A DNA stretch of 64,000 nucleotides from Nitrosospira lacus (lineage in GTDB: Bacteria; Pseudomonadota; Gammaproteobacteria; Burkholderiales; Nitrosomonadaceae). Below, piece after piece: positions 1-53,933 of this stretch (position 1 is the stretch's first letter; every line of letters starts with the position of its first letter). Made by a program: the position numbers and the translations under genes. The stretch covers positions 2,389,137 through 2,453,136 of the forward strand of contig NZ_CP021106.3 in the NCBI RefSeq assembly GCF_000355765.4, in the 5' to 3' direction. The notes beneath the pieces were generated by a model, which did not search any database, was not told the DNA's origin, and saw only the letters and a program-made list of their open reading frames with translations.

Positions 1-1088
1 AACATGGCTTGCACACCTTGCCTGGCGGCCGTGGCCAGCATTGCGTTGACGCCTTCATCATAGATTTCCCCCCAGGGAACCATCGTCGCTGCATGCCAAC
101 GCGGAGAATCTGCGGCCAATGGCAGATGCGCGTTCAGGTCAACGCTGGCGTCATGAAAGCCGAAGCGCTCGATCAGTGACTGGCGGCGCTGCTGCTGCCC
201 TGGTGCGTCCAGATGAATGCCAAAGGTCGATAAACCTGGCTGGTACTGGCGGCAAAGAATGGACACCAGGCTTGAATCCAGCCCACCGCTAAGTTCCGAC
301 CCATATTGTATATCGGCATGTATCCAGCGTTTCACCGCCCCCTCCAATATCTTGAGCGCCGCCTCGGCAGGTCTGGCATCTGCACACAAGGTTCTCACAC
401 CGGCCACGGATGCTGGATTGGGGTAGCTGATTCTGAGCCCGGTGTTGCCATTCCACAGCGCACAACTGAGCGCAGTGAGCATCTGCAATTCAAAAAATAA
501 GGTACGGCGCGAATAAGGCATATCGAAGGAATGCAAGAAACGCGATGCTCGCCCCAGATCAAGGCAGTCTAGATAGGGATAAAATTCCAGCGGATCCCAG
601 TGTCCACGCAGGGTATGCGCTGACTCCATCAGATAGATCGGTGCGGTGCCCCATGCACCTTGTCGTAACGACATCGCGCCTGCCTGATGATCGATGACCA
701 GAATGGTGGTTTGTAAAGGCCATGCACGCGCGGCAAGCACCGCCCTGTAAAAATTCGCAGCATCAAGGACTTGGTTGGCCGGTGCTTCTGCACCGCGCTC
801 ACGAACGATCATTGCACTAGCCTGGGGACAGCGCAAAGTGTAAGACTCCAGCATGGGATGTTGCAGAGAACGGATCCAGCTTTGCCCGCAACGCATTTCA
901 GTTGCAGACATGCGCCATGGTCGTTTCAGGGAAGACGCCTTGATTTCCAAACTCAGCATACCGACCTCATGAAGGATTTTTTTCTGGCGAGCTTCAATCG
1001 CCGCCAGATGAAAATTTGAGCGTGCTGGTGGAATGATGCGGGCCAAGTGCATTGCCATTTGCATTTGTATTCTTGCCTGCCGCAGCAT
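1..1088 (-). CDS. asparagine synthase-like ATP-dependent amidotransferase/cyclase, 3' end outside window
   Basis: The reading frame is open from an in-frame TAG at about 1097 to the left window edge, giving about 362 visible residues. The PP-loop ATP-pyrophosphatase motif SGGLDSS lies at 290-270 (about residue 267), followed by a segment typical of the AsnB synthetase domain. The N-terminal part has roughly the length of a glutaminase domain, but no Cys follows any candidate start (1088, 1064, 1058, 1052), so glutamine hydrolysis is probably lost, as in lasso-peptide cyclases (McjC type) and beta-lactam-synthetase-like enzymes. Such enzymes adenylate a carboxylate and form an amide or ring. 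It lies downstream of the repeat polyprotein on the same strand, which suggests that protein as substrate (inference). The PP-loop family is clear; the substrate is not. Confidence 0.85.
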   Translation of the reverse strand, partial: MLRQARIQMQMAMHLARIIPPARSNFHLAAIEARQKKILHEVGMLSLEIKASSLKRPWRMSATEMRCGQSWIRSLQHPMLESYTLRCPQASAMIVRERGAEAPANQVLDAANFYRAVLAARAWPLQTTILVIDHQAGAMSLRQGAWGTAPIYLMESAHTLRGHWDPLEFYPYLDCLDLGRASRFLHSFDMPYSRRTLFFELQMLTALSCALWNGNTGLRISYPNPASVAGVRTLCADARPAEAALKILEGAVKRWIHADIQYGSELSGGLDSSLVSILCRQYQPGLSTFGIHLDAPGQQQRRQSLIERFGFHDASVDLNAHLPLAADSPRWHAATMVPWGEIYDEGVNAMLATAARQGVQAM

Positions 1089-1108
1089 CCACGGCTAAAA
1101 CCATCGTG

Positions 1109-1139
1109 CCCGCCTGGGAGCAGTCTGTCACCAGGCGGG
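1109..1139 (-). promoter_or_regulatory. strong stem-loop between polyprotein and asparagine synthase genes
   Basis: Perfect 9-bp GC-rich arms (CCCGCCTGG at 1109-1117 and CCAGGCGGG at 1131-1139) enclose a 13-nt loop. No T-tract follows on the minus strand, so it is less likely a simple terminator than a partial attenuator or RNA-stability element. Its place between a putative precursor gene and a putative modifying enzyme would fit unequal expression of the two. Confidence 0.6.
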
Positions 1140-1175
1140 TCTAAACGATATGACTACACTACAAGTACAGGGCAC

Positions 1176-3527
1176 TCATTTCTTTTTCTTCGCTTGCCGG
1201 TCGCGTGCACCGCCGATTTTTGCCAGATAGTCTTGCCCGACAAGTTCCATCAGTTCATGAATCAAGGCAGTCAGCAAGGAAGGTCCGCCATCATCCTCAT
1301 TAACCAGACTGCGCTTTTTACGACGTTGGCGATCGCGCGCACCACTGATCTTCGCCAGCAATTCGGCTTCCGCAACATCGCTCAGACGCATTTTCTTGCG
1401 ACGCTGGCGATCACGCGCACCGGATATTTTTGCATTCGGCTCCAGCGCTTCATCTTCCTCGTCGCCCTCTTCAAACTGATCTGAACCATCAGCGATGTAG
1501 AGATTCTCTTCATCAGCCAGACTGCGTTTTTTACGACGCTGGCGATCGCGCGCACCGCTGATCTTCGCCAGCAATTCAGCTTCCGCAACATCACTCAGGC
1601 GCATCTTCTTGCGACGCTGGCGATCGCGCGCACCGGATATTTTTGCATTCGGCTCCAGCGCTTCATCTTCCTCATCGCCCTCTTCAAACTGATCTGAACC
1701 ATCAGCGATGTCGAAATCGTCTTCATCAGCCAGACTGCGTTTTTTACGTCGTTGGCGATCGCGCGCACCGCTGATCTTCGCCAGCAATTCGGCTTCCTCA
1801 ACATCGCTCAGACGCATTTTCTTGCGACGCTGGCGATCACGCGCACCGGATATTTTTGCACTTGGCTCCGGCGCTTCATCTTCCTCATCACGCTCTTCAA
1901 ACTGATCTGAACCATCAGCAATGTCAAGATTCTCTTCATCAGCCAGACTGCGTTTTTTACGGCGCTGGCGATCGCGCGCACCACTGATCTTCGCCAGCAA
2001 ATCGGTTTCATCACCCGCACTTGGGAGCGCCTTTTTCCTGCGTTGACGATCACGCGCACCTGCTGATTTGGCATCTCCGGTGGATAGTTGCAGATCGTCT
2101 TCCTGATCTTCATCCTCTTCCTCAGCCTCTACTGGATAGCACTGCGAGCATTTCGGCGCGGTCGGCGAAGTCATGGCGGTTTCATAGGTATTGATGCGGC
2201 AGCGATTGCTTGGGTAAGGCTGGCCTGCAAGATCTTCCGGCGCTGGGGTAATATCCAGCGTGGCATCCGATTTCTTTGCCAATTTCAGATAGGAATACAA
2301 CAATTCCAACTGATCGATGGCTTTCGGCAGGCGTTCAAAATATTCTTCGCCAAACCAGATCGTGCGCAAGGCAACCGATGCGGCAAACCAATCAGCCTGC
2401 CCTTCGCAAGTCACACCGCCATCCAGTTTTGGTTTGCCCAGCAGATGCCCAACTTCGTGCGCCAATACCATGGACACGCCTTCTATGACAAAGCCTTTGA
2501 TGCGCGCCAACCCGCCCGACAGGTACACATTCTGTTGACCAGTCACGGTATCAACCCAGGAATACGAATTCACCGTATCGTCATACCAGTTGAAGTTGAA
2601 CTTGATGTCAGGGTAATGCGGCTCAAATACAAACTCGATCAGATATTCACACATATCGAGCAGATATTGATTCGAGGTCGGTTCTTTTGGCGCCCACCAG
2701 CCTAGTATTGCTGCCTGAATTTCTGGCAAAAAGGCACTTGCATGCACAGGAATGGCGACCTCAAAGGCAGCGGCTGGAATAAATATACCATGCTCCATTT
2801 CTATCGCCGCATCCAGCTCGTTATGCTCGCTGACATTGCGCTCCAGCCAATCGCTGGAGCCAACCACCGGCCGGTCTTCATCCCCTTTGCTCTCTGCCTC
2901 AATGGCATCGGTTGGATAGTTTTCATACACAGAGACGGCATAGTCACCCGTTACCACACCTTCGGTAATGACAAGATGACCATCCAGATTGGCATTGGGT
3001 TTTTCCACGCTGGTGGCAAATTCCCAAAATTGCCCTATGTAAGAACCCCACCTTATCGTTTCTATCGTGATCGGGTTACCTTGTTCATCGATCAGCCTGT
3101 CCTTGAGCTGCAGCGCGCCGGCACCAACCAGTTTTTTGTCGGCCAATAGAAAAGGATGATCCATGGTTACCACTCGCTCCACCATCGTGCCGTCACGCTT
3201 ACGGTATTTGAGATAGATTGTATTTTTGGTTTCACCCCGATTGGTGCCGACCAGAGTTTCTACTTTCTTGGAAATAAACTTCAAATCCTTGCCAGCGGCC
3301 TTGACCTCTGTTTTGCGCTCGATTATGTCTTCCACCTTCAGTTCAGTGCCATTCGCCAGCGTCACCAATGTGCCGTTACCAAGGCAACTGCAAACGCAAT
3401 AACAGGTTTTGCCGTTTACCTGGTACATGATCCATTTTCCAGCTTCTTTGCCCAGATCGTGACAAGTCACATCGATATTCTTTTTCTCGGGAATACAAAA
3501 GCCATCACCGCAATATCCCACTGCCAT
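1176..3527 (-). CDS. Hint-domain / zincin-like polyprotein with nine basic GARDRQRRKK repeats
   Basis: Predicted 783 aa. Residues 1-48 are Cys-rich. Residues about 46-205 look like a Hint (hedgehog/intein) self-processing domain: a Cys just before GNGTLVTLANG, a TMDHPF block at 121-126 (TxxH-like) and a GHLVITEGVVTGDY block near 183-196. Residues about 225-460 contain HEVGH at 357-361 with a downstream EGQADWFA, a gluzincin-like metallopeptidase arrangement with Glu375 as possible third ligand. From about residue 465 the chain is very acidic and then carries nine GARDRQ modules (the first at residue 490, the last near the C terminus as GGARDRQAKKKK). No signal peptide is seen. It starts 56 bp downstream of the Cys-rich gene, so co-transcription is likely. 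Family assignments rest on motifs; the function of the whole is unknown. A self-processing multi-core peptide precursor is one reading; a secreted polymorphic or structural protein is another. Confidence 0.85.
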   Translation of the reverse strand: MAVGYCGDGFCIPEKKNIDVTCHDLGKEAGKWIMYQVNGKTCYCVCSCLGNGTLVTLANGTELKVEDIIERKTEVKAAGKDLKFISKKVETLVGTNRGETKNTIYLKYRKRDGTMVERVVTMDHPFLLADKKLVGAGALQLKDRLIDEQGNPITIETIRWGSYIGQFWEFATSVEKPNANLDGHLVITEGVVTGDYAVSVYENYPTDAIEAESKGDEDRPVVGSSDWLERNVSEHNELDAAIEMEHGIFIPAAAFEVAIPVHASAFLPEIQAAILGWWAPKEPTSNQYLLDMCEYLIEFVFEPHYPDIKFNFNWYDDTVNSYSWVDTVTGQQNVYLSGGLARIKGFVIEGVSMVLAHEVGHLLGKPKLDGGVTCEGQADWFAASVALRTIWFGEEYFERLPKAIDQLELLYSYLKLAKKSDATLDITPAPEDLAGQPYPSNRCRINTYETAMTSPTAPKCSQCYPVEAEEEDEDQEDDLQLSTGDAKSAGARDRQRRKKALPSAGDETDLLAKISGARDRQRRKKRSLADEENLDIADGSDQFEERDEEDEAPEPSAKISGARDRQRRKKMRLSDVEEAELLAKISGARDRQRRKKRSLADEDDFDIADGSDQFEEGDEEDEALEPNAKISGARDRQRRKKMRLSDVAEAELLAKISGARDRQRRKKRSLADEENLYIADGSDQFEEGDEEDEALEPNAKISGARDRQRRKKMRLSDVAEAELLAKISGARDRQRRKKRSLVNEDDGGPSLLTALIHELMELVGQDYLAKIGGARDRQAKKKK
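1179..2066 (-). repeat. in-frame tandem repeat array encoding nine basic cores
   Basis: Two alternating unit types form a 213-bp (71-codon) super-repeat. One core is followed by RSLADE..., IADGSDQFEE and an acidic run; the next by MRLSDV.EAELL. Most cores are preceded by AKISG. Nucleotide identity between super-repeats is high, with only scattered changes, so they look recently duplicated or homogenised. The first core (2031-2060) and the last (GGARDRQAKKKK) differ most, as expected for array edges. Confidence 0.95.
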
Positions 3528-3583
3528 GTTATTTCTCCTCTGTTTGAATACTTTAATAAATATGCTACTGTCCTACTTCCTAC

Positions 3584-4153
3584 TTACATCCCGGATTTAT
3601 GTGCGTCGATGTCAAGAAGTTCACCCCAGCGGGAATATCCAGGACGATCTGTATCCTCACTGGGGCATGTTTCATGAGGAAAACGTCCTTTCGCGCGGAC
3701 ATTGCATCCGCACAATCTGCAGATCTTTTTTTCTGCTGAAATCAGGCTGGCAGCCGCGTACGCCAGGTTTTGCGGCGGGTCCGCCAGTTGCGGACAAGAC
3801 ATGCAGGCTTGCCAGCGGCGATCACGGGTTTCGCTATCCACTTGCCTGGCCCCGTCACGCATCCACCGCACCAGCGAGCCACCCGCTTTTGCCATCAGTT
3901 CGCGGCTGCTGTGGGTCGGTGCGCTTGGCAAAAGGTGAGCAGGTATGGCTGGCGGGTGATCGAGCAAATGCATTACCGCATTCGCATGATTACGCATGGC
4001 ACCAAGTTTTGTTGCATAACCACGATGATTCATGACGGCCATCAGCGCCGCGTCGCTGATGGGGGCATCAACATTGAGCCAGTCGCGCAAGCGCTCCCGG
4101 ATTTGCTCACGTGATCCGCTGCTTAAATCAATTTCCATAGTCTGATCTGTCAT
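3584..4153 (-). CDS. small Cys-rich (zinc-ribbon-like) protein of the repeat-polyprotein cluster
   Basis: Predicted 189 aa from the ATG at 4153, which is preceded by AAAGGTG at suitable distance; upstream in-frame starts lack such a site. The N-terminal half is helical and has no motif I recognise. The C-terminal third has CMSCP, then CRLCGC, then a CP before a Trp, a four-plus-cysteine pattern likely to bind zinc. It sits between the LamG giant gene and the polyprotein gene, all on the minus strand. I do not recognise a named family; similar Cys signatures occur in small phage and cluster-associated proteins. A maturation or chaperone role for the neighbouring polyprotein is only a guess from position. 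Confidence 0.7.
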   Translation of the reverse strand: MTDQTMEIDLSSGSREQIRERLRDWLNVDAPISDAALMAVMNHRGYATKLGAMRNHANAVMHLLDHPPAIPAHLLPSAPTHSSRELMAKAGGSLVRWMRDGARQVDSETRDRRWQACMSCPQLADPPQNLAYAAASLISAEKKICRLCGCNVRAKGRFPHETCPSEDTDRPGYSRWGELLDIDAHKSGM

Positions 4154-4284
4154 GGTCTTCACCTTTCTGATAATGGATTTCGTTAAGATTGACGCCCTGA
4201 TGTCAATGCGGCAGCTCGCTTCTTGCTGCACACTTCAGCGAAGCCACCGCACTCACAATTTCTGATACTTCCGGCTGATAAAGT

Positions 4285-7200
4285 TTATGAAGGAATACGA
4301 TAGTAAGAACGCATATAGCGCATGATGTCCTCTTTGTATTCGGCTTTTTTCTTCAACAAATCGGCGCCCCATACCGGGTTTTTACTGAGCCGCGCCAATA
4401 ATTCATCCGCTTCAATACTCACTCTCGCCATGGGGTTTTGTGCATTCAGGTCAGTCGGCAATTCGGCAATCATGACCGCATTCGACAGCACGCTGTCTTC
4501 GTCCGGCAGCTGCACATTGGCGGCAATGGTCTGCCCTTTGTCCTGGACGCTGGGTGGAGTACGGTTGACATAGGTGACGCGATAAAGTACCCGCCACACC
4601 TCGTTCGGATTGTGCAAGGCAGAGCGCAATGCCAGTGCATCGGGATCGTATTTGCCAGCGTATTCGCCCTGTCCGTACAACCAGTTCTGATCAATCACTT
4701 CACTGAATTTCTCGAAATTTTGTTTGGACGGCGAGCGGTAAAAACTCATGAATCGATAGCCTTGAACCTTGCCCGGCGAGGGTTTGTTGGTGTAGCGATA
4801 ATCTTCATCCGGATCTTCTTCTATCAGTCCGATATACCGCTGGTCTCCAGGCAAATCAATTTCCAGCGTGAACATTGCCGAGTCGTGATCGGTTTTCATG
4901 GATTGCGTGGTGATGCTGGTGCCAAACATTGCATCCAGACTGAAGGTGGGACCGACGCTCAGCGTCGCTTCGGTATAGAAACCGGCCTTGGTCGAGATGG
5001 AGAAAGTGCCGCCACTCGATTCTTCTCTTAATGCCATGAACTGTTGCTGCTCGGCATACAAACCGCCAAGTGCGGTCCAGACATAGGTATTCACCATACT
5101 TCTGCGTGCCATTTGCGCGCGCCATTCCTTGACCGACAAGGCAGCCTTTTGCCTGAGGCCGATCAACGCATTCACCAGGCTCTGGCTACTATCGGCAATG
5201 TCGGTACCCCGTGGCGAAAGTATGTTGGCTCTTTGCCCCAGCGCCTCGGCATCGAAATTTTCAAAGCGTGATTCTCTTTGCTTTTGTTCCCGCTCGATGG
5301 ATGCTTTCATCGCATAGGCTTCCAGTGGTTTGAAATAACTGGCCTGGTCGCCCACTTGCAAATTCGGGTAGCTCTTGTCTGGCTGGAAGCCTATCCAGCC
5401 ATCCAGCGTGCCATTTTTCACATACTGGTCATTCAGCTTGAACATGATGATATTCATGTCTTCCGGTATGTCAGGATTCGGGCGCGAGGTGTAACCCACC
5501 AGAGTGCCTGTCCCTTCTATGCGCATGGCAAACAGATCGGCGGTGCCGGAGCGCACCAGCGCATAGCCGACATTATTGGGATAATGGATATCGCCGACAC
5601 CGGCATCGATCTGATACACATTCGGCTTCCACTCGCCGCGTGATTCCAGAAACTTGCGTGCCGTCACCGTTAGCTCTTCACTTGCCAGCCCTTCACCCAG
5701 AATGCCGACACTGCTGTCAGTCTGCAGTGCCAGTCCGGCATTGAAACCATAGGCCAAAATTTGCTGTTGCACACCGATCCCCGCACTGGTTTCTCCTTCA
5801 ACCGCAAAACCGTAACGCACATTCATATCCATTACCGTGCTGCGGTCACGCGAAGCGGTATACGAGTAGGTCTTGATATCGGTTTCATCGATCAGCACGC
5901 TGGAGGCACCCACATAAGACAACGGATCGCCCGGGAACAGTTTCATGTTTTCAGCCGGGAGTGGCGGCGCCCCTTCGATATAACCAATCAATGTTGGCTC
6001 GACCTGGGCCTGGCCTATGTATTGCAGAATCAGATTGCCTATCCTGAAATCGGCAAACAGCACCATGCTGGCATCAAGCTGGTCAACGATAGCCAGCGTC
6101 TGCAACAGGCTGGCATATAGATTGCCACGCGCATCAACCTGGGTTTGGCCATAGCGACCCACCGTGGGCGCGAAGGCCGTTTTCAGGTTTTCTGGTTTGG
6201 CGATATCGCCCGGTGTGCTTTGCAATGCCGGTTCTTCCAGACCGGCTGGCGCAGTCGAGATCAACCAGACCGCATCATCATTGGCGATGCCGGTATTGCC
6301 CCAGCCTGAATAATCTGTGATGTATTGGCCGGAGCCATTATTAATTGCCCAAAATGCCGCCATGCCGGGCTCTTTCCCGCTCAACAGGGTGAACATGGCG
6401 CCGCGAATTTGTGCACCGGTTCTTTGCGTGCTCCAGATACGGGTCTGGCTGATCTGGCCGGTGAAGAAGCGCGAAATCGAGCCGCGCAAGGAAAATGCCC
6501 CCAGGTTGGCTTGTTCGCTGCCATAGTCGCCGGATGGCAAGGCACCGGGCATGCTGTTGATGGGATCCCCATTGATGAAAAAACTCCAGCCCGATTTAAA
6601 GGCGGTTTGTATCCACATCGCATCCATGATTTCGTCCGTCAGATCGACGCGCCCGTCTCGTATCAAGGCATTATTGTTGCTCTTGTCATCAAACACCGTG
6701 CCGCCTTTGCCGGTACGAAAGGGCCAGTTGGCTAGCAAGCCCTTAGCATTCGGCTCCAGTGGTTCAGTCCTGAAATAATCGATTTGCCAGTTCATCCGGC
6801 CAACTTTCCAGAGGCGTGATTCCGACACCGCACCTTGCAGGTATTTGGTAAAGACACTCGAACCCATGGTCAGGCTGGAATTGGAAATGGCGATCGGGTC
6901 CACCACTCTTTCGAAGGCTTCCATGCTACCGTTGATAAATAGCTTGTGCGCGAATGCTCCCTTGTCGATGCGAATGAAATTCCCGGTCACCAGGCTGCCA
7001 TTGGCCGTGCCAGCCAGATCCATGACGGTGTTGCCAAACAGATCGTTGAATTTCCAATAGCCAGCCAGGCCACGCTCATTGGATGCCAGAGGCTGCAAAA
7101 TCTTTTGCCTGACTTCATTCAGGCTCAGGCCGCGATCCCACAGGCTGACTTCATTCATGGTGCCGATAAAGCTGAGCTGGGCAGCAATACCGCCGACCGA

Positions 7201-10200
7201 ATAGGCGGCTTCTGCCTCTCCCTGTGCCGCTTTGGCAGCTTGCAGGCCAAGCAATGACACACCCGTCGATGTCAGGGTTCGGCGGCTACCGACGCGTTCA
7301 GCAACTCCGGTCATAGGTAGTATCGGCACGCCATCAATAATCAAGGCAATGCCACGCACGGGGTCATAGGTGCCGGCGATGTGCACCCAATCGTCACGGC
7401 GCAAAGTGGCGCTGTCCTTGATGCTGTAGGTGCCATCGTCAACATACACGGTAAATTGCGGCACGCCCTTGTACAAACTCAGGGTAAACACCAGGCTGGC
7501 GGCGGCGTCGGTGGAGGAGAACATCACCTCTTCGGTATTCGAACTGTTTTGCGTGCGTTTGAGCCACATCATCACGCTGACGCCGGTCTTGGGTGGAGTT
7601 CCGACTTGCGGAATCTTCACATAAGATTTTTGATCAAAGGCAATCGCCACTTGACGTTCGAAGGCGACATCATAGACACCGGCGACATGGGTCCAACTGC
7701 CTATGCTGAGTGCCGATCTGGAGGTGACGGCACGCTCATAGGTGCCGGTTTCTGTCGATTGATTGACGCGAAACACCAGCTTGCCTTTGCTGTCTATGGC
7801 AAGCGACCAGCTGCTGTCGGTGCCAGTGCCAGTCTTGGCGATGACGACTTGCTCTGCGCCCAGCGCATCGAGCCTGACCCAGGCTTCTACGGTGACGGCT
7901 TCGGCGGTGTTTAAACTTTCGTCGGAACCGGCATTCAGGTAACGGCTACCCCCCAGCTGCAGACCGAAGGATGTTCGATACGAAGCGGCAAGATGGCTCC
8001 AGCCCTGATCGAGCGGCACTTTCTCACTTGCGACATTGATCACCTCGCCTTTGCCAGCGAATGGACGACCATCATTCAGCCCTAAAATATAGCGTACCGT
8101 CTGTTCCTTGGTTTTTCCATTTTTGTTGAACACAAATACGGTGTGCACATTATCCATCTCATTGCTAAGAGGATTCAGCCATGCCTCTATCGTCATATCG
8201 CGGTCTAACAGCAAACTTCCCTGATAATCCACCATCTCATTGGGGCTGATGATCTCTATGTATTGCCCCAGGTCTTGCATATCCAGACCCAATAAAGGCG
8301 CGTACGGCAACCAGCGCCCGCCCGCGCCTATCCTGCCGCGTGCCGGTGGGGCCGTATCACTGGTCTCCTGCACTAAGGCCGCCATGCCATTGGCTGGTTC
8401 GGCATCAATGAACACCACGAAGATTGATGAGCCCGTGCCAGCGGCAGGTGCCGGACCGCTCTGACCGTACCCGGGCGTAATCGTCACCTTGGTGTAGTCA
8501 TACATCAATTGATCTTCATCGATTTCTGCAGGGTCATTGCTTAACTGCGCGGCCTGTCCGTTGATGACCTGGACAAACTCATCGACGGCTTGCGGTACAC
8601 CCGGCCAGACTTCGGTGTAGCCGGTGTAACTGCTCAACGTGACTTGGCACTTTTGCTTGGGTTTTTTGACGATCTTGATCCAGACCTGTTTGGTATTCTT
8701 ATTGTTCATCGCGGTGCCAGCCATGCGCGCCACAAAGCTGAGTTGTCCTGATTCTGAATTCTCTGGCGTGCTCGCATCGGCAGCGATCCACGGCACCAGA
8801 TAACTCGCACGCGTGACGACAGGGCAAAAATGCGCGGCGCAAGCTTGCTGACTGCCCTTTTCCGCGTAATAAAGGTGCAACAGCGAGTCCGCTCCTTCAT
8901 CAATACTTGGCGTCGCATCGGTGGCGGCGTAAGCCAGCATGCCGCTTAAAAACGTCAGGCCACGCGGGTCTATCGCCAACGCCACACCGGTGTTGGTGCT
9001 TGGCACCCGGCTGGCGACCCAGCGTGCCCCAGCTAGCACGCCATCATTCGCTGCTCCGGCCTGGGATTGATTCGGCACCGTGGTGAAGCGGCGTGCATCG
9101 TTAGGCTCGTTCATTTGCCAAGCCCCAAGCAGATGCGGCCAGTCCGGATCTTGATCGGTGATGATGGTATTCATGCCCGCCCAGATTTGCTCCTGGCTGC
9201 GGACGCTGTTCCACAAACGTACCGCCGCCAAATCACCGGTAAAACCCTGTTCACCACCGAGACGATATCCGCTTGCCGGTGCTTCGGCATTCTCGCCCTC
9301 GACCCCATTATCTGTGGTGTATGCCTGGCCGTTGATATACAAGGTGCAGCTCGCATCCCACACCGCCGCCACATGCGTCCAGTCATGATTACTGATTGCA
9401 TCTGTGCCAGCGACGGTATGCCCGTCCGGGCCAATAAAATACGGTATGCCGCCATCCAGCCCAAGAGTAAACAACACCGCCTCGCTCGCGGCACTGGCAG
9501 CGATGATGCAGGCACCCTCCGGGTTTTTCGACGGCAGCAGCCAAGTCTCAAATGTCATGGTCGGGCCTGTTGCGATGGACGGCAGATCAACCTGGGCGGC
9601 AATTTCAGGACAAAAATTCAATGCCCCCTGCAATACCGCCTTATCGGCAACCGTTAGTTTATTGCCGACCTGCGCCAGCATTCCATCCTTACCCAGGCCA
9701 AAATCCAGATAGGCAATCTGCCTGGCACTGCCAACAGCCAGCGCGACCATCACGCGCACTTCGCGTTTTTGTAAATTGATTTTTCCGTATTCGTCCAACT
9801 GCCATTCTTGCTGATCGTAGCGGCAGATCGCCGGGCCCGATTCCAGTGACAACGCGGCACCATTCGCATCGACCAGCTCAAAACTGGCATTCGGAATAAT
9901 CGCGCCGCTGTCCGGGTCCAGGCTGTCTCCCAGATCAAAGCCGCCATTCTGGCTGCGTGCAATGGAATAGCTGTCCAGCTTCCCGGTTTGGGCATTCTGG
10001 CAAAGCATCTGCCACTTGCTGATACCCGCCAATTCCGTAGGCAGTAAAGTCACGCAAAACCGCCCCGGCACCACCCCGTCGGCAAAATCCAGTTCCGTCG
10101 TCGGCTCGACGAAGAACACCTCGTTCATATCCCTCGCGCCGAAGCTGTCGCGCCTATCCATGGGTAGATAAGCTTTGCGGCTGCGGCGATAGCGCACCTG

Positions 10201-10596
10201 CACCGCATTGGTCAGCTTGCCCGTCGTCTGATCGAGCACAAATTTGTCGCAATAAATCGTCTGATTGGTCGACGGCCGGAATACATAAATAAATTCCGCA
10301 TCTGACATCACATCAAAACCGGCATCGCTCATCGGCGCTGCCTCACTCATTTTGACAACCAGCAGTCCCCTGCCCAGCGTACAAATTTCTTTTGGAAATT
10401 GCAGATTTCTTGGTTCACTCCAGGACGAGTCGGAATCGACGTTGTCATTCTCCATGACATGCACCGAATACACCATTTGCGGCGCCAGATCGGCCTCAAC
10501 AACTATGGAAAAAGCAATGACGGTGCCGGAATGCGCGATGGTCCTTGAATATTTTATTGGCATATATCTATCCCAAGAAAACGGGTTGATGTTCAT
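4285..10596 (-). CDS. giant LamG/concanavalin-fold repeat protein
   Basis: Predicted 2103 aa. The first 350 residues are unassigned. At least five LamG-like (laminin G/pentraxin fold) units follow, recognised by the pattern T-E-W/A-W..., then DWTHVA or GWSHLA or SWTHVAGVYD, then LYINGQ/LFINGS and a terminal VRLWN/VSLWDRGLS element. The C-terminal 600 residues contain no LamG motif and have a helical KASIEREQKQRES segment and a Ser/Thr-rich beta-type segment. No signal peptide or TM segment is evident at the chosen start; a second ATG at 10562 (MPIKYS) is possible. LamG units bind glycans or proteins, usually outside the cell. It is upstream of and co-oriented with the polyprotein cluster, with 131 bp between this gene and the Cys-rich one, so it may be a binding or export partner. 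Confidence 0.85.
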   Translation of the reverse strand: MNINPFSWDRYMPIKYSRTIAHSGTVIAFSIVVEADLAPQMVYSVHVMENDNVDSDSSWSEPRNLQFPKEICTLGRGLLVVKMSEAAPMSDAGFDVMSDAEFIYVFRPSTNQTIYCDKFVLDQTTGKLTNAVQVRYRRSRKAYLPMDRRDSFGARDMNEVFFVEPTTELDFADGVVPGRFCVTLLPTELAGISKWQMLCQNAQTGKLDSYSIARSQNGGFDLGDSLDPDSGAIIPNASFELVDANGAALSLESGPAICRYDQQEWQLDEYGKINLQKREVRVMVALAVGSARQIAYLDFGLGKDGMLAQVGNKLTVADKAVLQGALNFCPEIAAQVDLPSIATGPTMTFETWLLPSKNPEGACIIAASAASEAVLFTLGLDGGIPYFIGPDGHTVAGTDAISNHDWTHVAAVWDASCTLYINGQAYTTDNGVEGENAEAPASGYRLGGEQGFTGDLAAVRLWNSVRSQEQIWAGMNTIITDQDPDWPHLLGAWQMNEPNDARRFTTVPNQSQAGAANDGVLAGARWVASRVPSTNTGVALAIDPRGLTFLSGMLAYAATDATPSIDEGADSLLHLYYAEKGSQQACAAHFCPVVTRASYLVPWIAADASTPENSESGQLSFVARMAGTAMNNKNTKQVWIKIVKKPKQKCQVTLSSYTGYTEVWPGVPQAVDEFVQVINGQAAQLSNDPAEIDEDQLMYDYTKVTITPGYGQSGPAPAAGTGSSIFVVFIDAEPANGMAALVQETSDTAPPARGRIGAGGRWLPYAPLLGLDMQDLGQYIEIISPNEMVDYQGSLLLDRDMTIEAWLNPLSNEMDNVHTVFVFNKNGKTKEQTVRYILGLNDGRPFAGKGEVINVASEKVPLDQGWSHLAASYRTSFGLQLGGSRYLNAGSDESLNTAEAVTVEAWVRLDALGAEQVVIAKTGTGTDSSWSLAIDSKGKLVFRVNQSTETGTYERAVTSRSALSIGSWTHVAGVYDVAFERQVAIAFDQKSYVKIPQVGTPPKTGVSVMMWLKRTQNSSNTEEVMFSSTDAAASLVFTLSLYKGVPQFTVYVDDGTYSIKDSATLRRDDWVHIAGTYDPVRGIALIIDGVPILPMTGVAERVGSRRTLTSTGVSLLGLQAAKAAQGEAEAAYSVGGIAAQLSFIGTMNEVSLWDRGLSLNEVRQKILQPLASNERGLAGYWKFNDLFGNTVMDLAGTANGSLVTGNFIRIDKGAFAHKLFINGSMEAFERVVDPIAISNSSLTMGSSVFTKYLQGAVSESRLWKVGRMNWQIDYFRTEPLEPNAKGLLANWPFRTGKGGTVFDDKSNNNALIRDGRVDLTDEIMDAMWIQTAFKSGWSFFINGDPINSMPGALPSGDYGSEQANLGAFSLRGSISRFFTGQISQTRIWSTQRTGAQIRGAMFTLLSGKEPGMAAFWAINNGSGQYITDYSGWGNTGIANDDAVWLISTAPAGLEEPALQSTPGDIAKPENLKTAFAPTVGRYGQTQVDARGNLYASLLQTLAIVDQLDASMVLFADFRIGNLILQYIGQAQVEPTLIGYIEGAPPLPAENMKLFPGDPLSYVGASSVLIDETDIKTYSYTASRDRSTVMDMNVRYGFAVEGETSAGIGVQQQILAYGFNAGLALQTDSSVGILGEGLASEELTVTARKFLESRGEWKPNVYQIDAGVGDIHYPNNVGYALVRSGTADLFAMRIEGTGTLVGYTSRPNPDIPEDMNIIMFKLNDQYVKNGTLDGWIGFQPDKSYPNLQVGDQASYFKPLEAYAMKASIEREQKQRESRFENFDAEALGQRANILSPRGTDIADSSQSLVNALIGLRQKAALSVKEWRAQMARRSMVNTYVWTALGGLYAEQQQFMALREESSGGTFSISTKAGFYTEATLSVGPTFSLDAMFGTSITTQSMKTDHDSAMFTLEIDLPGDQRYIGLIEEDPDEDYRYTNKPSPGKVQGYRFMSFYRSPSKQNFEKFSEVIDQNWLYGQGEYAGKYDPDALALRSALHNPNEVWRVLYRVTYVNRTPPSVQDKGQTIAANVQLPDEDSVLSNAVMIAELPTDLNAQNPMARVSIEADELLARLSKNPVWGADLLKKKAEYKEDIMRYMRSYYRIPS

Positions 10597-11409
10597 GAAG
10601 GCAACTCTATTCAGTCGCCACGGGTTCCTTCTTGTACCTGCGTGGATTCGACGAATGCAGGCGATCAGTTAAACCGTGCTGTGAATAATTGCTAAGGCTT
10701 CCAGCGAGACTGCGATAAAGATGGTGATGAGCACGCCTGAACCTATCCCCGAAAAAATGCAGTGTTTAAGGCGTGATCAAGATTAATGTTGCGTGGCAAC
10801 TTGTCCAATACGGTCGAGATCAATTTTCATGACGATGGAAACTAAATGGAAAATGAGTTGAAGGGCTGGCAGCATGACCCTTTCTCATTATTCCTTCTCT
10901 TATTGCCTACTGAAAACGTCGCTATTAGACAGTGAAGTGAAACACTTGAATAGCTGTAAGATGTTACAGGTAAGGATGAGCTTGAATGGTTGGAATCAAC
11001 GGCGGGCGAGCTTCAAACACTTGTCGAATGCGTGAATAACAGGATCGACTCGTCTCCAGCACGATAACTAAGCCCAATGCAGCCTGGGAGTTTATGCAAT
11101 GCCCTGAGTCCAAAATTGAAGGCTAACAGTTGTTCTATTGGCCGAAAAAGCCTTGAAATATGGGCCGGCCAGACGCTTCAGCCGATTTCCTTTAAGTCCG
11201 ACAGGCTGCTAGAGCGAGCTGCCATGCTGGTAATGAAGACCGATTACGTATTGGGTGCAACCTTTCCGAGAGGTCAGGAGGTGAACGGAAACGCTATGTC
11301 GATCCATAGCTTGTACGCTCCCTCCTATACCAGCACTCGATTTCTCACACCGACACTTGCCACACTGAAACAAGGATATCCGAATAGCGGATTTCTGCGG
11401 CGCAAAAAA
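10597..11409. other. intergenic region, no convincing gene
   Basis: About 800 bp without an ORF of normal coding character. A short minus/plus mix of stops interrupts possible protein-like stretches (for example near 10960-11060 on plus), suggesting decayed sequence. A small dispersed repeat lies at 11179-11208. The plus-strand ORF across 11077-11610 runs antisense into the VOC gene and is probably spurious. Confidence 0.5.
11179..11208. repeat. short dispersed repeat, copy 1 (second copy near 48831)
   Basis: The core CCTTTAAGTCCG with flanks GATT and CAG is shared with 48831-48860. In this copy CAGCC and GGCTG can pair around it. The origin is unknown. Confidence 0.5.
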
Positions 11410-11907
11410 CTATCCGGCATATGCCTTCATCAATTCATCAATGTCGAGTTTCTTCATACGGAGCATCGCCTCCATAGCCCTGCCCGACTTTTCCGGGTCG
11501 GGATCACTCATTATTTTTGGCAAAACACTGGGGACAATTTGCCAGGACGCGCCATATTTATCCTTCAGCCAACCGCACTGCTGAGCTTTTTCGTCTCCAC
11601 CCTGGGATAATTTCTCCCAGTAATAGTCGACTTCTTCCTTTGTTTCACAATTGACCTGAAACGAGATGGCCTCGTTGAACTTGAACATGGGGCCGCCGTT
11701 AAGCGCGGTGAAATCCTGTCCATCAAGTTCAAACGCGATGGTCATGACTGATCCCGCTGGTTTTCCGTGTATCTCGCGTCCTGCTTCTCCATAGCGGGAA
11801 ATGTTCAAAATCCTTGAATTCCGGAAAATGCCGGTATAAAACTTGACCGCTTCTTCAGCCTGACTATCGAACCACAAGCAAGGGGTGATCTTTTGAGTAT
11901 TTGGCAT
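11410..11907 (-). CDS. VOC-family PhnB-like protein (glyoxalase/3-demethylubiquinone fold)
   Basis: Predicted 165 aa from the ATG at 11907, preceded by CGGAG at 9 nt; an upstream in-frame start is rejected for lack of a site. The sequence begins with the typical ITPCLWFDSQAEEAVKFY motif and contains MTIAFELDGQDFTALNGGP and a WLKDKYGASWQIVP segment, the signature of the PhnB-like (3-dmu-9_3-mt) branch of vicinal-oxygen-chelate proteins. These are cytosolic, and most have no proven reaction. It is a single gene, divergent from nothing obvious, and its regulation is not visible. Confidence 0.9.
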   Translation of the reverse strand: MPNTQKITPCLWFDSQAEEAVKFYTGIFRNSRILNISRYGEAGREIHGKPAGSVMTIAFELDGQDFTALNGGPMFKFNEAISFQVNCETKEEVDYYWEKLSQGGDEKAQQCGWLKDKYGASWQIVPSVLPKIMSDPDPEKSGRAMEAMLRMKKLDIDELMKAYAG

Positions 11908-12055
11908 GACGTTTTCTCCGGTTGGGATAATAATAAATATGAATGACCATACCATCGACTAGTCGTTTGCGGAGTGCTGATATCGACACATTGGGGAATT
12001 GAAATTATTTTCACACCTCCCACTACTGCCAGATTCCTTTCGCTTGCGATCACCT

Positions 12056-14614
12056 CTACTGCTCAAGCAATGTCACCACGCCACTTGTACCGTCAACTTC
12101 CACCATGTCCCCGTCCTTGAGTCTATCCAGTATTCCCGGCAAATTGACCACCGCGGGAATGCCGAATTCACGGGCAACGATCGCGCCATGCGACAAATAG
12201 CCGCCGGCCTCCACCACCAGACCGCCCGCAATGAGGAAAAGCGGTGTCCAACCGGGATCAGTGGAGGGAGCGACGAGAATATCGCCTGGCTGCAACCTGT
12301 AACTCTCGGACGGATGGCGAAAAAGACGGGCTTTGCCTCTGGCGCGGCCTGTGCCGGTGGGTATTCCCTGGTAGCGTGATGAATCATTTTCTGGTGCAGC
12401 AGTGATATCTTGCTCCCGCAAGCCCCATGTCAAATACTGGGCTGGATCAATCAGAACATCCGGCGCTATTTCCTGCGACCATTGCTCGAACAGCCTGTTC
12501 CGCTCGGCCACGCGCGCCCTTACACCGGCTGCGGGAATATCGCCGCCTAGTGCCCGCAGTATTTCAGAGAGCATGAGCTGAAAAATGTCCGCTTCCTGCG
12601 CCAGCGCCCCCTGCTCGGCCAAATGGCGCCCGGCAGCCAGCAAGAGCCGGCGTTCCGGTTCCATATAGGCAACCAGCGCGCTGCGTGCGGCTTCACGCTG
12701 GTTGCATTCCTGGCGCGCCGCTTTTGCCAGTCCCTCGATAAACGCCCGTTTCCAGAATGGCACGCCGGCCTTGATCCGCGTCAGGGCTTCCGCCACGGCT
12801 GCCTGCTGGCGAGCCCGCAGAGCCGCTTCATCAACTTCGGCCAGTTGTGCCAGTGACGACAACAAGTATTCCGGCGCTTCCCGCCATCGCGGATTGCGGA
12901 AATAAGTTTCATACAACCCGCGATGGCCGTAATGTTCAAGAAATCTATCGAAAGCATGCTGAAATTCCGGATCTTTCCCGTACTGGCAGAGCTGACGGCT
13001 GCCTAAAGCTCCATGGCTTTCTCGCGACGCGATTTCCCGTGACAAACGTGCCAGAGCCATCAGCTCATAGCCTTGACGTGCCGTTACGCTCGACTCGCCG
13101 CCTGCGAGCAAGGCCGTACCCAGCGCATATCCCTCGCCCGGAAAATATTTGTCCAGCTGCTCGACCAGCATTGACAAACTTCCGCCGCCGGAGCCCTGCA
13201 GAAAGAATAGATCGACCGCGCCCCGCCCTGCTCGAAACTGGCGCAGGATTTCCACCTGCAATCCTGCCGCATCCCCGGGAGGCGTTTGTTTACGCCACTG
13301 GCCCGCCTCAATCATCGCGCGCTCAACGGCTCGCATGCCCCGGCGGCGTTGAGCCGGAGAACGCAGCACATAACGAAGCACCCGGCGTAAACGTGCGAGA
13401 CGATCGCCAAGCCTCGTTGCGGGTACTGCAATTTCCGGTTGATGACCGCCAATCAGCACATTCACCGCCTTGGGAACGACGCCCAGTGCATCAAAACATT
13501 CCCACTGCAACAAGGAAAGCGCCAGATAAAGCCGGCCGTGGAAGAGCCCGGCGCGTTGCGCGCCCGGCAGCAGCGGGTAACCGGCCAGTAGGTAACCCTG
13601 CGTGAGCAGTCCATTGACGAGCTTGCGTGAATTGCTCCAGTCGATCGGCGATAGCGGCTCGGGCACCACCTCGCAGGTATTGCCGCGCGTCCAGTACGCG
13701 GGCTGGGTTTGCAATGGGGTGTAGGTATAATGGGGCCTTGCGGTAACCGGCCGGCCCTGGGTCAGCCAAAATCGGTCGCCATCCCACACCCATTCCAGAT
13801 CGTAGAACGGATGGGTGAAATCCAGTGCCACAGCGGCGTCACGCAGCAACTCGGCCAAATGCAAGGCTTGACTGGAAGAAAGAACAAAAGCTCCGGCTTC
13901 AGCCGCCGGTGTGGGGATCATTGCGGTTCCACCACCCGGCTGGGCGACGGCTTTGGCCGCCTTGCCGCCCATTCGCCGGTGAAGCAATGTCCAGTGATCA
14001 TCGAGTGGATCTTCGGCAAAAACATATTCATCGCCGTCGGTCTTCCCTCCGACCAGCGCCTCGCCCAAGCCCCATTGTGCGTGAATGACCAGCCGGTCGT
14101 CACGGCTGCTAATAGGGTCGCACGTAAAGGCGATGCCGGAAGCAACAGCGGGCAGCAAGGGCATGATAATCACCGCCATGTCCGGCACCGTATCGTCCGT
14201 ACCCAGCCCCAGTTTCTGCCGGTAAGCGATAGCCGCCGAGGACCACAGCGACGCCCAGACCTCAAGAATAGCCGCCTGTACTTGCTCCATGCCGTATACA
14301 TTCAGGCACGAGCGGTAAATGCCGGCGAAAGAAACCTTGGCCGAGTCTTCCCCGGCAGCTGAAGAGCGCACGACCAGCGGCTTATTCAACCAGTCACGGA
14401 CGGCCAGGGCTTCCTGCAATGCGCCCGATAATTCCGGTGGCAGTGCCGCCGCTCCCGTATGTGACGGACACCACCCAGCTGGAATCACCAGCCCCTCCGG
14501 TACCGGCAAACCAAATTGCTTGAGCCGCGCCAATTGCCAGGCTTTGCCCCCCACCGTCACCGCATCGGCGGCCAGAACGCCTTGCCAGTCGAGTATCGCC
14601 GGTTGCGCTGCCAT
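12056..14614 (-). CDS. PEP-utilising phosphotransferase, rifampicin phosphotransferase-like
   Basis: Predicted 852 aa, close to the length of rifampicin phosphotransferases (about 860) and longer than PEP synthase. The N-terminal PEP/pyruvate ATP-grasp domain shows VGGKAWQLA and VVRSSAAGEDS. The middle region is helical and variable. The C-terminal swivelling domain has GGYLSHGAIVAREFGIPAV with the phosphorylated His. The reaction would transfer a phosphate from ATP via this His to an acceptor (an antibiotic in Rph, pyruvate in PpsA). The gene starts 2 nt after the stop of a TetR regulator, so the two form an operon. The middle domain is unlike PpsA, which favours Rph-like drug or metabolite phosphorylation; the substrate is not known. 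Confidence 0.85.
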   Translation of the reverse strand: MAAQPAILDWQGVLAADAVTVGGKAWQLARLKQFGLPVPEGLVIPAGWCPSHTGAAALPPELSGALQEALAVRDWLNKPLVVRSSAAGEDSAKVSFAGIYRSCLNVYGMEQVQAAILEVWASLWSSAAIAYRQKLGLGTDDTVPDMAVIIMPLLPAVASGIAFTCDPISSRDDRLVIHAQWGLGEALVGGKTDGDEYVFAEDPLDDHWTLLHRRMGGKAAKAVAQPGGGTAMIPTPAAEAGAFVLSSSQALHLAELLRDAAVALDFTHPFYDLEWVWDGDRFWLTQGRPVTARPHYTYTPLQTQPAYWTRGNTCEVVPEPLSPIDWSNSRKLVNGLLTQGYLLAGYPLLPGAQRAGLFHGRLYLALSLLQWECFDALGVVPKAVNVLIGGHQPEIAVPATRLGDRLARLRRVLRYVLRSPAQRRRGMRAVERAMIEAGQWRKQTPPGDAAGLQVEILRQFRAGRGAVDLFFLQGSGGGSLSMLVEQLDKYFPGEGYALGTALLAGGESSVTARQGYELMALARLSREIASRESHGALGSRQLCQYGKDPEFQHAFDRFLEHYGHRGLYETYFRNPRWREAPEYLLSSLAQLAEVDEAALRARQQAAVAEALTRIKAGVPFWKRAFIEGLAKAARQECNQREAARSALVAYMEPERRLLLAAGRHLAEQGALAQEADIFQLMLSEILRALGGDIPAAGVRARVAERNRLFEQWSQEIAPDVLIDPAQYLTWGLREQDITAAPENDSSRYQGIPTGTGRARGKARLFRHPSESYRLQPGDILVAPSTDPGWTPLFLIAGGLVVEAGGYLSHGAIVAREFGIPAVVNLPGILDRLKDGDMVEVDGTSGVVTLLEQ

Positions 14615-14616
14615 GA

Positions 14617-15231
14617 TTATGGCCGTGGCCTGAGTCCAAACAGAAAGAGATCAAGCATCCGGGAAAATTCCTCAGTCAATGACAGATCCTCATGCAGCAA
14701 CCAGCGCAGCAGCGCCGCCAAATAAAGAAATTCCAGGTAGACCGCCAGGATGGCTGGCTCACACGCTGCGCAGAACTCTTCGCTTGCCTGTCCTTGCGCG
14801 ATAAAATAGCCGAAAATGCAATCTAGACCGCTACGGGAATCATCATCCCGCCGGCGGGGCTCGCTCAGCCGGAACTGTACGTAAGGCAGCAGGAAGGCAC
14901 GATGCGATTGGGACCATGCGGCGCTGCGTTCCAGAAAAGCCCGTAATTGACCCTCGAAACTCGGCAAGGAAGTAATGTCAGCCAAAACTTCGGGCCATGC
15001 CTTTTCCAGTTCGCGATGGAAGCGGTGGCACAGTAAGGCTTCCTTGGCCGAGAAATGCTTGTACAGTGTCCCCTTGGCGACATCGGCCACGTCGGCAATG
15101 CGCTCCATGGTCACCACCGCGAAACCCTCGCTTTCAAACAATGCCCAAGCCGTATCCGCCAAGTTATCGAGTAACTGCAGGCGCTTACGCTCGCGGCGGC
15201 CGAGCTCAGCGAAATGGTTCTTAATATGCAT
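14617..15231 (-). CDS. TetR/AcrR family transcriptional regulator
   Basis: Predicted 204 aa from the ATG at 15231, with AGGA 6 nt upstream; a GTG at 15258 lies directly against its GGAG and is less likely. The N-terminal HTH shows TMERIADVADVAKGTLYKHFSAKEAL, the classic TetR DNA-binding helix pair; the C-terminal ligand domain is Leu/Arg rich. It is the first gene of a two-gene operon with the Rph-like enzyme and probably represses it in response to that enzyme's substrate. The upstream AT-rich segment 15260-15320 is the likely promoter/operator; I see no clear palindrome. Confidence 0.9.
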   Translation of the reverse strand: MHIKNHFAELGRRERKRLQLLDNLADTAWALFESEGFAVVTMERIADVADVAKGTLYKHFSAKEALLCHRFHRELEKAWPEVLADITSLPSFEGQLRAFLERSAAWSQSHRAFLLPYVQFRLSEPRRRDDDSRSGLDCIFGYFIAQGQASEEFCAACEPAILAVYLEFLYLAALLRWLLHEDLSLTEEFSRMLDLFLFGLRPRP

Positions 15232-15546
15232 TTTTATTCCTGAGTTCGGTACACCCACCTCCTATTCAGAAATTACCTATCGTGAAAATATAGACTAGGT
15301 GTATAAATATACGATGTTCATTTATTTCTGGCAATAGATGGTTCATATTTTTTGAGATGTAAATCGGCCGCGCACATGGGCAACCCGCTTAAGCTTTCCT
15401 GTAAGCGGTAACGTATACTTCATACATTCGCCATCATGAAAGGCAAGGTCAGAGAACACGCCATGCATACGGAAGAGAGAATTACCCGCCTGCTCCGACG
15501 ATCCTTGAACGCCGGTCTTCATCGCTCCGGTGGATATGACGAGAGT

Positions 15547-16488
15547 ATGAAACAACCTGTTGGTGGCCGCCGTGAACTGGTCATGCTATCCCTGGTCCTC
15601 AAAGTTTTGCGATATGCTTTCCATGGCCTGTTCGCCAGTGCTTTATCTCTTGCGCCAGCATTTGCACAAAGCCCAATTACCATCGAGTTCAAAGGCGGGG
15701 ATCAGGCTGTCAAGGCACTCTCTTTGAAAGACCTTGCGGCCCTTACGCCAGCGGTCTCGCTCAAGGTTTTTGAAGTACACGAAAATGCGGAACGCATTTA
15801 TCGTGCTTTCCCGGTCCGGCCTGTATTGGATAAGGTATTCGGCAACGAGTGGAAAAAAGCGCAGGAGATCGTATTCACTTCCATCGACGGGTATCAGCCA
15901 AGCGTGCCTGTCGCCAAGTTCCTCGCCCATGACGCCTATTTTGCCTTCGCGCATGAAAACGGCAGACCATTCACGATGACCAACACGCTCCAGAACAACG
16001 AAATCGTGCAACTCGGACCGTTGTACCTGATCTGGGACAATATCAACTCAAAAGAACTGCTTGAATCCGGCGCCTCGGACATGCCCTACCAGATCAAGAG
16101 CATCGAGATTAAGTCCATTGCTCCGTTTCCCAATATGGCTCCCCCGGCAAATGCCTCCGCGGAAGTTCAGCGCGGGTTCACGCATTTTCGCAAGCACTGC
16201 ATGGCATGCCATACAATCAATGGCGAGGGGGGTGGCAAGGCGGTGGAACTCAACTATCCGGTCAGCGTGGTCGAATACATCAAGCCTGAATACCTGAAGC
16301 GCTGGATCGAGAATCCCCAAACCATCCGGTACAACACGACGATGCCGGGACTTGCGAGGGAGATCCCCAACCGGGGAAAGGTCGCGGAAGAACTGATCCT
16401 GTATCTCAAGGTAATGAGTATTGCAAAGCGCGCCCCGGCAAAATCGTCTGAAAATATTTCTGAGCAGCCGGAATCCAGATTTCGATAA
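15547..16488 (+). CDS. periplasmic class I cytochrome c with oxidoreductase-like N-terminal domain
   Basis: Predicted 313 aa from the ATG at 15547 (ATG 15583 is also possible). A signal peptide with a cleavable AFA-QS ends about 40 residues in. The central part has a molybdopterin-oxidoreductase-like segment, without recognised cofactor residues, seen in several beta-proteobacterial cytochromes. The heme-binding CMACH motif is at 16198-16212, and a TTMPGL methionine follows as probable sixth ligand. It would act in periplasmic electron transfer. It is single, divergent from the TetR gene across about 300 bp, and no partner gene is adjacent. Confidence 0.9.
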   Translation: MKQPVGGRRELVMLSLVLKVLRYAFHGLFASALSLAPAFAQSPITIEFKGGDQAVKALSLKDLAALTPAVSLKVFEVHENAERIYRAFPVRPVLDKVFGNEWKKAQEIVFTSIDGYQPSVPVAKFLAHDAYFAFAHENGRPFTMTNTLQNNEIVQLGPLYLIWDNINSKELLESGASDMPYQIKSIEIKSIAPFPNMAPPANASAEVQRGFTHFRKHCMACHTINGEGGGKAVELNYPVSVVEYIKPEYLKRWIENPQTIRYNTTMPGLAREIPNRGKVAEELILYLKVMSIAKRAPAKSSENISEQPESRFR

Positions 16489-53857: not shown

Positions 53858-53933
53858 TCCCCGATAGCTCAGTCGGTAGAGCGACGGACTGTTAATCCGC
53901 AGGTCCCAGGTTCGAGCCCTGGTCGGGGAGCCA
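53858..53933 (+). tRNA. tRNA-Asn (anticodon GUU)
   Basis: 76 nt with encoded CCA. Acceptor arms TCCCCGA and TCGGGGA pair; D-loop AGCTCAGTCGGTAGAGC; anticodon loop CTGTTAA with GTT at 53891-53893; T-arm GGTTCGAGCC. All cloverleaf elements are present. Confidence 0.97.

Follow-up and report, generated by a model that had tools for sequence, protein, structure and literature searches.

Why should one bacterial gene encode a Hint-like block, a zincin-like HEVGH motif and a tail of nine near-identical basic repeats, and what relation does it bear to the asparagine-synthetase-like (AS-like) ligase gene beside it? The genes in question lie at one end of a 64,000-nucleotide window of the Nitrosospira lacus genome (G000:C1:2389137-2453136; genome of 3.26 Mb, single contig), in which a sequence-only reading had proposed a peptide precursor carrying its own processing domains. 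On balance, we favor the view that the repeat tail is a multicore substrate of the AS-family ligase, which would probably close seven-residue side-chain lactams between Lys and Asp. The Hint/zincin part forms, with a small Cys protein, a cassette that is not by origin a peptide-maturation unit. This view is supported by a gene set kept in two genomes, by a motif found in both fused and free form, and by the same Lys-Asp spacing beside relatives of the enzyme.

The fusion protein (783 residues; open reading frame, ORF, at 1176-3527, minus strand) does combine all three elements in one gene, as the sequence-only reading had stated. Its tail holds nine 14-residue units of the form AK-x-x-GARD followed by basic residues, of which eight end in GARDRQRRKK and the ninth in GARDRQAKKK. 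All are on the minus strand: unit 1 at 2031-2072 (AKSAGARDRQRRKK), unit 2 at 1953-1994 (AKISGARDRQRRKK), units 3 to 8 at 1818-1859, 1740-1781, 1605-1646, 1527-1568, 1392-1433 and 1314-1355, and unit 9, at the C terminus, at 1182-1223 (AKIGGARDRQAKKK). Acidic spacers separate the units, long ones alternating with shorter ones. Lys, Gly and Asp occupy positions 2, 5 and 8 in all nine, so that every unit contains Lys(i)-Asp(i+6); RQRRKK, or RQAKKK in unit 9, then follows. Across 504 codon pairs among the units we counted 218 synonymous and 39 non-synonymous differences. Because the differences are mostly synonymous, the peptide sequence of the units looks to be held by selection, rather than to reflect a fresh expansion of the DNA.

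Repeats and AS-like gene occur together in one other genome of the order, G389 (locus L012). There the gene order is a LamG protein of 2098 residues, a Hint/zincin protein of 469 residues that lacks repeats, a truncated second copy of 270 residues, the Cys protein, a repeat gene and the AS-like gene. The repeat gene is thus free-standing in G389; it encodes 318 residues, lies directly upstream of the AS-like gene and contains units of the types AKIAGARDAKGKKK, AKAPGARDAKGKRK and KKPSGTTDAKRKKK. The pattern K..G..D is matched 14 times in G389 (10 with GARD) and nine times here (all nine with GARD), and an offset of six is the commonest Lys-Asp spacing among offsets 1-12 in both repeat regions (17 and 15 pairs, respectively). 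Identities between the two loci are 45% for LamG (over its length), 48% for Hint/zincin, 36% for the Cys protein and 34% for the AS-like enzyme. Among 399 genomes of the order, including this one, a profile of the AS-like pair (E <= 1e-20) and the Hint/zincin protein each matched the same two. Neither repeat region gave a BLAST match on plasmids with the low-complexity filter on. The sequence-only reading had agreed to be refuted if its genes did not co-occur elsewhere; they do, in this one genome only.

The window edge cuts through the AS-like gene. Its N-terminal part lies at 1-1088 (minus strand), its stop falls outside the window at L002:16528, and the whole ORF spans L002:16528-18225; the likely start, the ATG at 957-959, corresponds to residue 44 in the longest ORF. 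The full 565-residue protein matches Asn_synthase (PF00733) at E 2.5e-19 and retains the PP-loop SGG-DS. No glutaminase Cys directly follows the aligned start Met in any of six members aligned (0/6), which bears out what the sequence-only reading had said of this neighbor. With SGG-DS kept and that Cys missing, the enzyme should use an amine rather than glutamine-derived ammonia. Of the solved sequences, its profile matched only 1jgt (1.2e-6) and 7ylz (5.9e-7) at E <= 1e-5. Relatives were found in 49 plasmid records, with 25-30% identity among the best 40 of the 49, and are mostly annotated as 'asparagine synthase-related' or hypothetical. Two more occur in viral contigs and none in phage records. 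A phylum search at E <= 1e-25 recovered the enzyme from 1 of 398 genomes, its own, and a search of the order of G633 at E <= 1e-30 from 1 of 150. In Mesorhizobium the gene after the AS-like gene encodes a phosphotransferase (L052:6707-7525, APH by Pfam; L021:9563-10525, by annotation), and in Streptomyces an ABC transporter (L022, L050) or a methyltransferase (L049).

Short ORFs upstream of these relatives, examined in nine plasmid loci and the two viral contigs, carry the same spacing. Lys(i)-Asp(i+6) appears as KGGKPGD in Rhizobium, KRRLPGD and KVRLPGD in Mesorhizobium, KPAGTED, KAAETSD and KMPGGGD in Streptomyces, and KPYLGDD in Xanthomonas. The cases read after the K-x5-D idea had formed were positive in 3/3 (KPSGQGD in L055 and KIAGSSD in L056, both viral, and KPSHWLD in G964/L063). 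The Bradyrhizobium motif KRPSRPD, met together with the first set but not part of it, and its diverged relative KRRLRTD, found later, are not counted among these three. KIAGSSD and KPSGQGD each share five of seven residues with G389 units (KIAGARD and KPSGTTD), and Gly stands three residues after Lys in 7 of 13 cores. Nine representative ORFs all held K-x5-D, against a shuffled mean of 1.94 and with 0 of 4000 shuffles reaching that count, in a test that takes in the sequences that suggested the motif and some ORFs that are alike; no other residue pair at offsets 1-12 was present in all nine. A mechanical rule (same-strand ATG ORF of 30-80 residues, nearest stop at most 300 bases away) found K-x5-D at 9 of 12 AS-like loci vs 3 of 146 controls, ORFs that precede other long ORFs of the retrieved loci (Fisher 3.4e-10, with loci treated as independent and relatedness uncorrected). 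Among controls with at least two Lys and at least two Asp the motif was present in 1 of 18. A Rhizobium ORF pair differs by 17 synonymous and 4 non-synonymous changes, a clear sign of constraint. Taken with the repeats, these ORFs make it fairly well supported that units and ORFs are substrates of the AS-like enzymes. One viral contig also contains, at L055:76-1274, a 2OG-Fe(II) oxygenase-like gene (PF13759) and other ORFs ahead of the K-x5-D ORF; one of these other ORFs may encode a second precursor.

What, then, is the rest of the fusion protein for? We read 13 Hint/zincin loci: this one, G389, G795, G606, two plasmids of Streptomyces canus, and S. iconiensis, Nocardiopsis, Nitrospirillum, B. 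stagnalis, B. pyrrocinia, Mycetohabitans and Paenibacillus. A relative of the Cys protein, which here has 189 residues (3584-4153, minus strand) and owes the label 'Cys-rich' in the sequence-only reading to six Cys, is found downstream of the Hint/zincin gene in 13/13, our locus included. The match in S. iconiensis reaches E 5.7e-6 only, and in G389 the truncated Hint/zincin copy intervenes. None of the other 12 Hint/zincin proteins bears repeats; the two loci in which we did see them are those with an adjacent AS-like gene. Absence of the repeats from homologues of the Hint/zincin part was an outcome that the sequence-only reading had itself named as refuting, and it is what we found. Since the other 12 proteins lack repeats, Hint/zincin and Cys protein would not be a peptide-maturation unit by origin, and we rejected, as primary reading, the idea that Hint/zincin is the peptide's own maturation protease; HExxH is moreover lost in 6 of the 13, and the repeat gene of G389 stands free.

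The company that the cassette keeps suggests another role. In 9 of the 13 loci its neighbors include large proteins of LamG, Tc, RHS or injection type. LamG is beside it in this genome, in G389 and in G795, where LamG is split in two ORFs and Hint/zincin and the Cys protein are accompanied by neither repeats nor an AS-like gene. In B. pyrrocinia and Mycetohabitans the neighbors are annotated as neuraminidase-like and SpvB/TcaC genes, and B. stagnalis, judged by size only, has neighboring ORFs of similar size and order. The G606 neighbor is a 2358-residue protein, RHS-like as judged by eye, Paenibacillus has a 2753-residue ORF, judged by size only, and the S. canus locus L007 holds a baseplate J, LamG and AHH set. 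The cassette thus probably serves large exported or injected proteins, with the repeats and AS-like enzyme as an added module.

The distribution of the Hint/zincin protein is rare and patchy: it was found in 1 of 125 genomes of its own family and 1 of 28 of the family of G389. A phylum search matched 7 of 398 genomes, of which we read our own, G795 and G606 and left out the weak partial matches G533, G633, G013 and G746. A phage origin was rejected, as the protein was unmatched in phage records and no relative was confirmed in viral contigs. Several observations concern the cassette's parts in other settings. The S. canus plasmid L006 has a pair of Hint/zincin genes, nearly identical and oppositely oriented (8272-9696, 11869-13392), and a third, truncated copy at 14670-15335. 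In plasmids of Sinorhizobium (L014:10370-12354) and Azospirillum (L015:10202-12288) a member of the Cys protein family immediately follows a gene of the alkaline phosphatase family, and the stretches read there gave no Hint/zincin match. Likewise, relatives of the LamG giant (28-33% over about the C-terminal 800-1000 residues) are present in Salipiger, Planktothrix, Calothrix and Streptomyces plasmids (L024-L028), and no Hint/zincin match was found in the stretches read around them.

The domain search that the sequence-only reading had called for gave a mixed result: Asn_synthase is above cut-off, the Hint domain stands by profile, and the zincin stays at motif level. The fusion protein begins with 47 Cys-rich residues (3387-3527, minus strand) ahead of the Hint Cys48; C6, C22, C42, C44, C46 and C48 are invariant in 13/13 aligned homologues. 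The Hint-like domain (residues about 48-200; 2928-3386, minus strand) has Cys48, present in 13/13 homologues, and TxxH, present in 11/13. PT-HINT in Pfam scores 21.6 bits, under the 27.7-bit cut-off, and a five-sequence profile matches the solved bacterial intein-like (BIL) domain 2lwy at E 7.5e-7. Foldseek, run on a model of poor quality (mean pLDDT 51.6), gave inteins or BIL domains in every one of its top 13 rows, none of which reached E <= 0.001. Profile and fold searches carry the putative Hint call. The zincin-like domain (residues about 240-470; 2118-2810, minus strand) is a candidate by motif, mainly HEVGH (2445-2459, minus strand) and CEGQAD. Its family matches are weak (E 0.06-0.09; M48 peptidase profile, E 0.093), and two S. 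canus homologues are annotated as 'M48 family metalloprotease'. HExxH is intact in 7 of the 13 homologues; the six that lost it (L007-L011, L045) belong to Tc-, RHS- and injection-type loci. All of these but L007 have a C-terminal extension of about 100-176 residues with no repeats, and that of L010, when scanned, gave an Ig-like domain just below cut-off.

In the mechanism we propose, each unit would present Lys2 and Asp8 (AK-I-S-G-A-R-D) around Gly, followed by the basic stretch. Once adenylated by the AS-like enzyme, the side chain of Asp would be attacked by the amine of the unit's own Lys, yielding a seven-residue Lys-Asp lactam, unit after unit. Since the substrate is here fused to a cassette protein whose loci so often include large exported or injected proteins, the modified units may be displayed on that protein or cut from it; in G389 the substrate would be the product of a gene of its own. 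Given Lys, an Asp six residues on and a frequent Gly, the simplest bond to propose would be a lactam between Lys and Asp within one unit; Lys might instead serve in recognition only. The action of the enzyme on the units and the purpose of the product likewise belong to the proposal.

Several points weigh against this interpretation. Repeats and AS-like gene are together in two genomes only, and no large exported partner was recognised in 4 of the 13 cassette loci (L006, L017, L018, L019). Of the proteins scanned in the window locus and its flanks, none was recognised as an exporter of peptides or as a dedicated peptidase, and the AF2 model of the enzyme (pLDDT 34) was not used. Besides the make-up of the shuffled set, noted above, the nine representative ORFs were hand-chosen, two of them trimmed to the first ATG, and L049 is represented by a 39-residue ORF nearer the enzyme gene, the annotated 58-residue coding sequence lacking the motif. 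The mechanical rule yields no ORF at L022 and L053 and another ORF at L052, three loci whose annotated or homologous ORFs do hold the motif; its count leaves out the near copies L059-L062 and scores L063 by eye. Constraint was not shown for the Mesorhizobium ORF pair (9 synonymous, 9 non-synonymous differences) or the Bradyrhizobium pair (4 and 11).

The units could also be substrates of the enzyme in another sense, their Asp being joined to an amine on a different protein such as the LamG giant, so that cross-links or anchoring result and Lys serves for recognition only. Many identical units per chain and a conserved LamG protein of about 2100 residues in both repeat-bearing loci would suit such a scaffold, and the glycosyltransferase gene that overlaps the enzyme gene here also counts in favor. 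However, no relative of that glycosyltransferase was found in the G389 stretch, Lys(i)-Asp(i+6) also occurs in the short ORFs of relatives that have no LamG protein among their annotated neighbors, and two residues at fixed spacing suit an intramolecular bond. We regard cross-linking as unlikely. It is rather improbable that the tail serves a Hint/zincin delivery cassette as a basic region for binding or targeting (to nucleic acid, the cell surface or the like), with the AS-like gene an unrelated neighbor. The units are indeed strongly basic between acidic spacers (71 K+R and 76 D+E in 311 residues), and the cassette does occur in Tc-, RHS- and injection-type loci; yet no other Hint/zincin protein has such a tail, the repeats keep to the two loci with an adjacent AS-like gene, beside which they form a free gene in G389, and it is the non-basic half of the unit, K-x-x-G-x-x-D, that the ORFs of the relatives share.

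Lasso rings comprise 7 to 9 residues and, with the Ala of each unit taken as residue 1, Asp stands at position 8, so an unusual lasso-type system might be considered in which the enzyme joins a freed N terminus to the Asp of AKISGARD. The relatives do score to macrolactam/lasso cyclase models, but far under cut-off (at best 39.5 of 300 bits for NF033561 and 25.9 of 525 for NF033535), and NF033535 gives only 18.1 of 525 bits on the in-window part of the enzyme. The lasso B protein, or leader peptidase (PF13471), was found in 0/10 of the sets searched (this genome, G389 and eight plasmid records of relatives, the chromosomes of those plasmid hosts being unsearched), whereas the same search was positive in 2 of 14 control genomes. 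Because of this absence the lasso route is disfavored; tandem internal units would, in addition, need a cut before each Ala, and the Lys at position 2 is invariant. We consider a lasso product very unlikely.

How does the lactam-forming ligase that we favor compare with known systems? Besides lasso C proteins, enzymes of the AS family that act on ribosomally synthesized and post-translationally modified peptides (RiPPs) include TsrC, ScdTA and PesC (PMC13060819). Our system resembles all of these in pairing an AS-like enzyme with a ribosomal peptide, with weak profile similarity. It differs from lasso systems in that no B protein was found and in its substrate motif, Lys-x5-Asp, set in a short ORF or tandem repeat. 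Unlike asparagine synthetase B, the enzyme lacks the glutaminase Cys, so that neither glutamine-dependent amidation nor the nitrile formation of PesC is expected. The solved sequences matched by its profile are a beta-lactam synthetase (1jgt) and a hydroxyamidotransferase (7ylz); the former enzyme forms its lactam on a small molecule rather than on a gene-encoded peptide. Graspetides, which are made by ATP-grasp ligases, would be similar in product, side chain being tied to side chain in a lactam, whereas the enzyme here is AS-like. No ATP-grasp ligase adjoins the repeats: locus proteins match Asn_synthase, glycosyltransferase, LamG and, weakly, Hint only, and the closest ATP-binding enzyme, encoded beyond the locus at 12056-14614, is a PPDK_N/PEP-utilizer protein. 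Hint and metallopeptidase-like domains beside Tc-, RHS- and contractile-injection genes recall the processing proteins of polymorphic toxin and injection systems (PT-HINT), for which Zhang and Aravind reportedly described a 'PVC metallopeptidase'. Unlike those systems, the window locus has no recognised toxin domain, and repeats and an AS-like gene are added.

In keeping with RiPPs in general, repeats or a short ORF adjoin the AS-like gene and would act as the precursor. In the open-licence literature, as seen by title or the start of the abstract, we found no description of AS-like enzymes making Lys-Asp side-chain lactams. We see a RiPP-like system with an AS-family ligase that has a fair chance of being its own class. 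More tentatively, that class may be defined by an AS-family ligase that lacks a lasso B partner and ties Lys(i)-Asp(i+6) side chains across Proteobacteria, Streptomyces and viral contigs, its multicore form being tandem lactam units on the Hint/zincin protein of an exported- or injected-protein locus.

The minus-strand gene order is LamG protein (2103 residues, 4285-10596), six-Cys protein, Hint/zincin/repeat protein, AS-like gene and a GT4-type glycosyltransferase gene, which lies outside the window (L002:14867-16531, minus strand) and overlaps the AS-like gene by 4 bases. Besides Asn_synthase, Laminin_G_3 (1e-55) and Glycos_transf_1 (1.4e-20) exceeded their Pfam cut-offs; a recognition-type domain suspected by eye at the glycosyltransferase end had no Pfam match, and an Rfam scan of window positions 1-16000 gave no hit. 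The locus abuts a tRNA-Val whose region is matched in 23/23 genomes of the genus, our own included. Because similarity in two same-genus relatives stops within 32 bases of the tRNA-Val end (3 and 32 bases beyond it), the locus is consistent with an acquired island; no part of it reappears in the 10 kb read in those relatives, so that a boundary is placed on the tRNA side only. An anti-phage defence role for the locus was rejected, PADLOC giving no match for P0001, P0003, P0004, P0005 and P0006. Elsewhere in the window, a low-GC (36-38%) gene pair at 55820-60210, downstream of a tRNA-Asn at 53858, is a possible two-gene anti-phage module. One gene encodes an OLD-family AAA/TOPRIM ATPase (PADLOC 'Old', 1.5e-89); the product of the other is an nSTAND3 protein that fits PDC-S73, a candidate defence model (3.6e-36).

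The analysis separates two things: a Hint/zincin/Cys cassette of several phyla, and a peptide-modifying module joined to it. If our reading of that module is true, a short ORF with K-x5-D that adjoins a gene for an AS-like enzyme without the glutaminase Cys would flag an overlooked group of peptide-cyclising enzymes, together with their substrates, in rhizobia, streptomycetes and others. The nine-unit form found here would then allow such a ligase to be assayed on a single chain.

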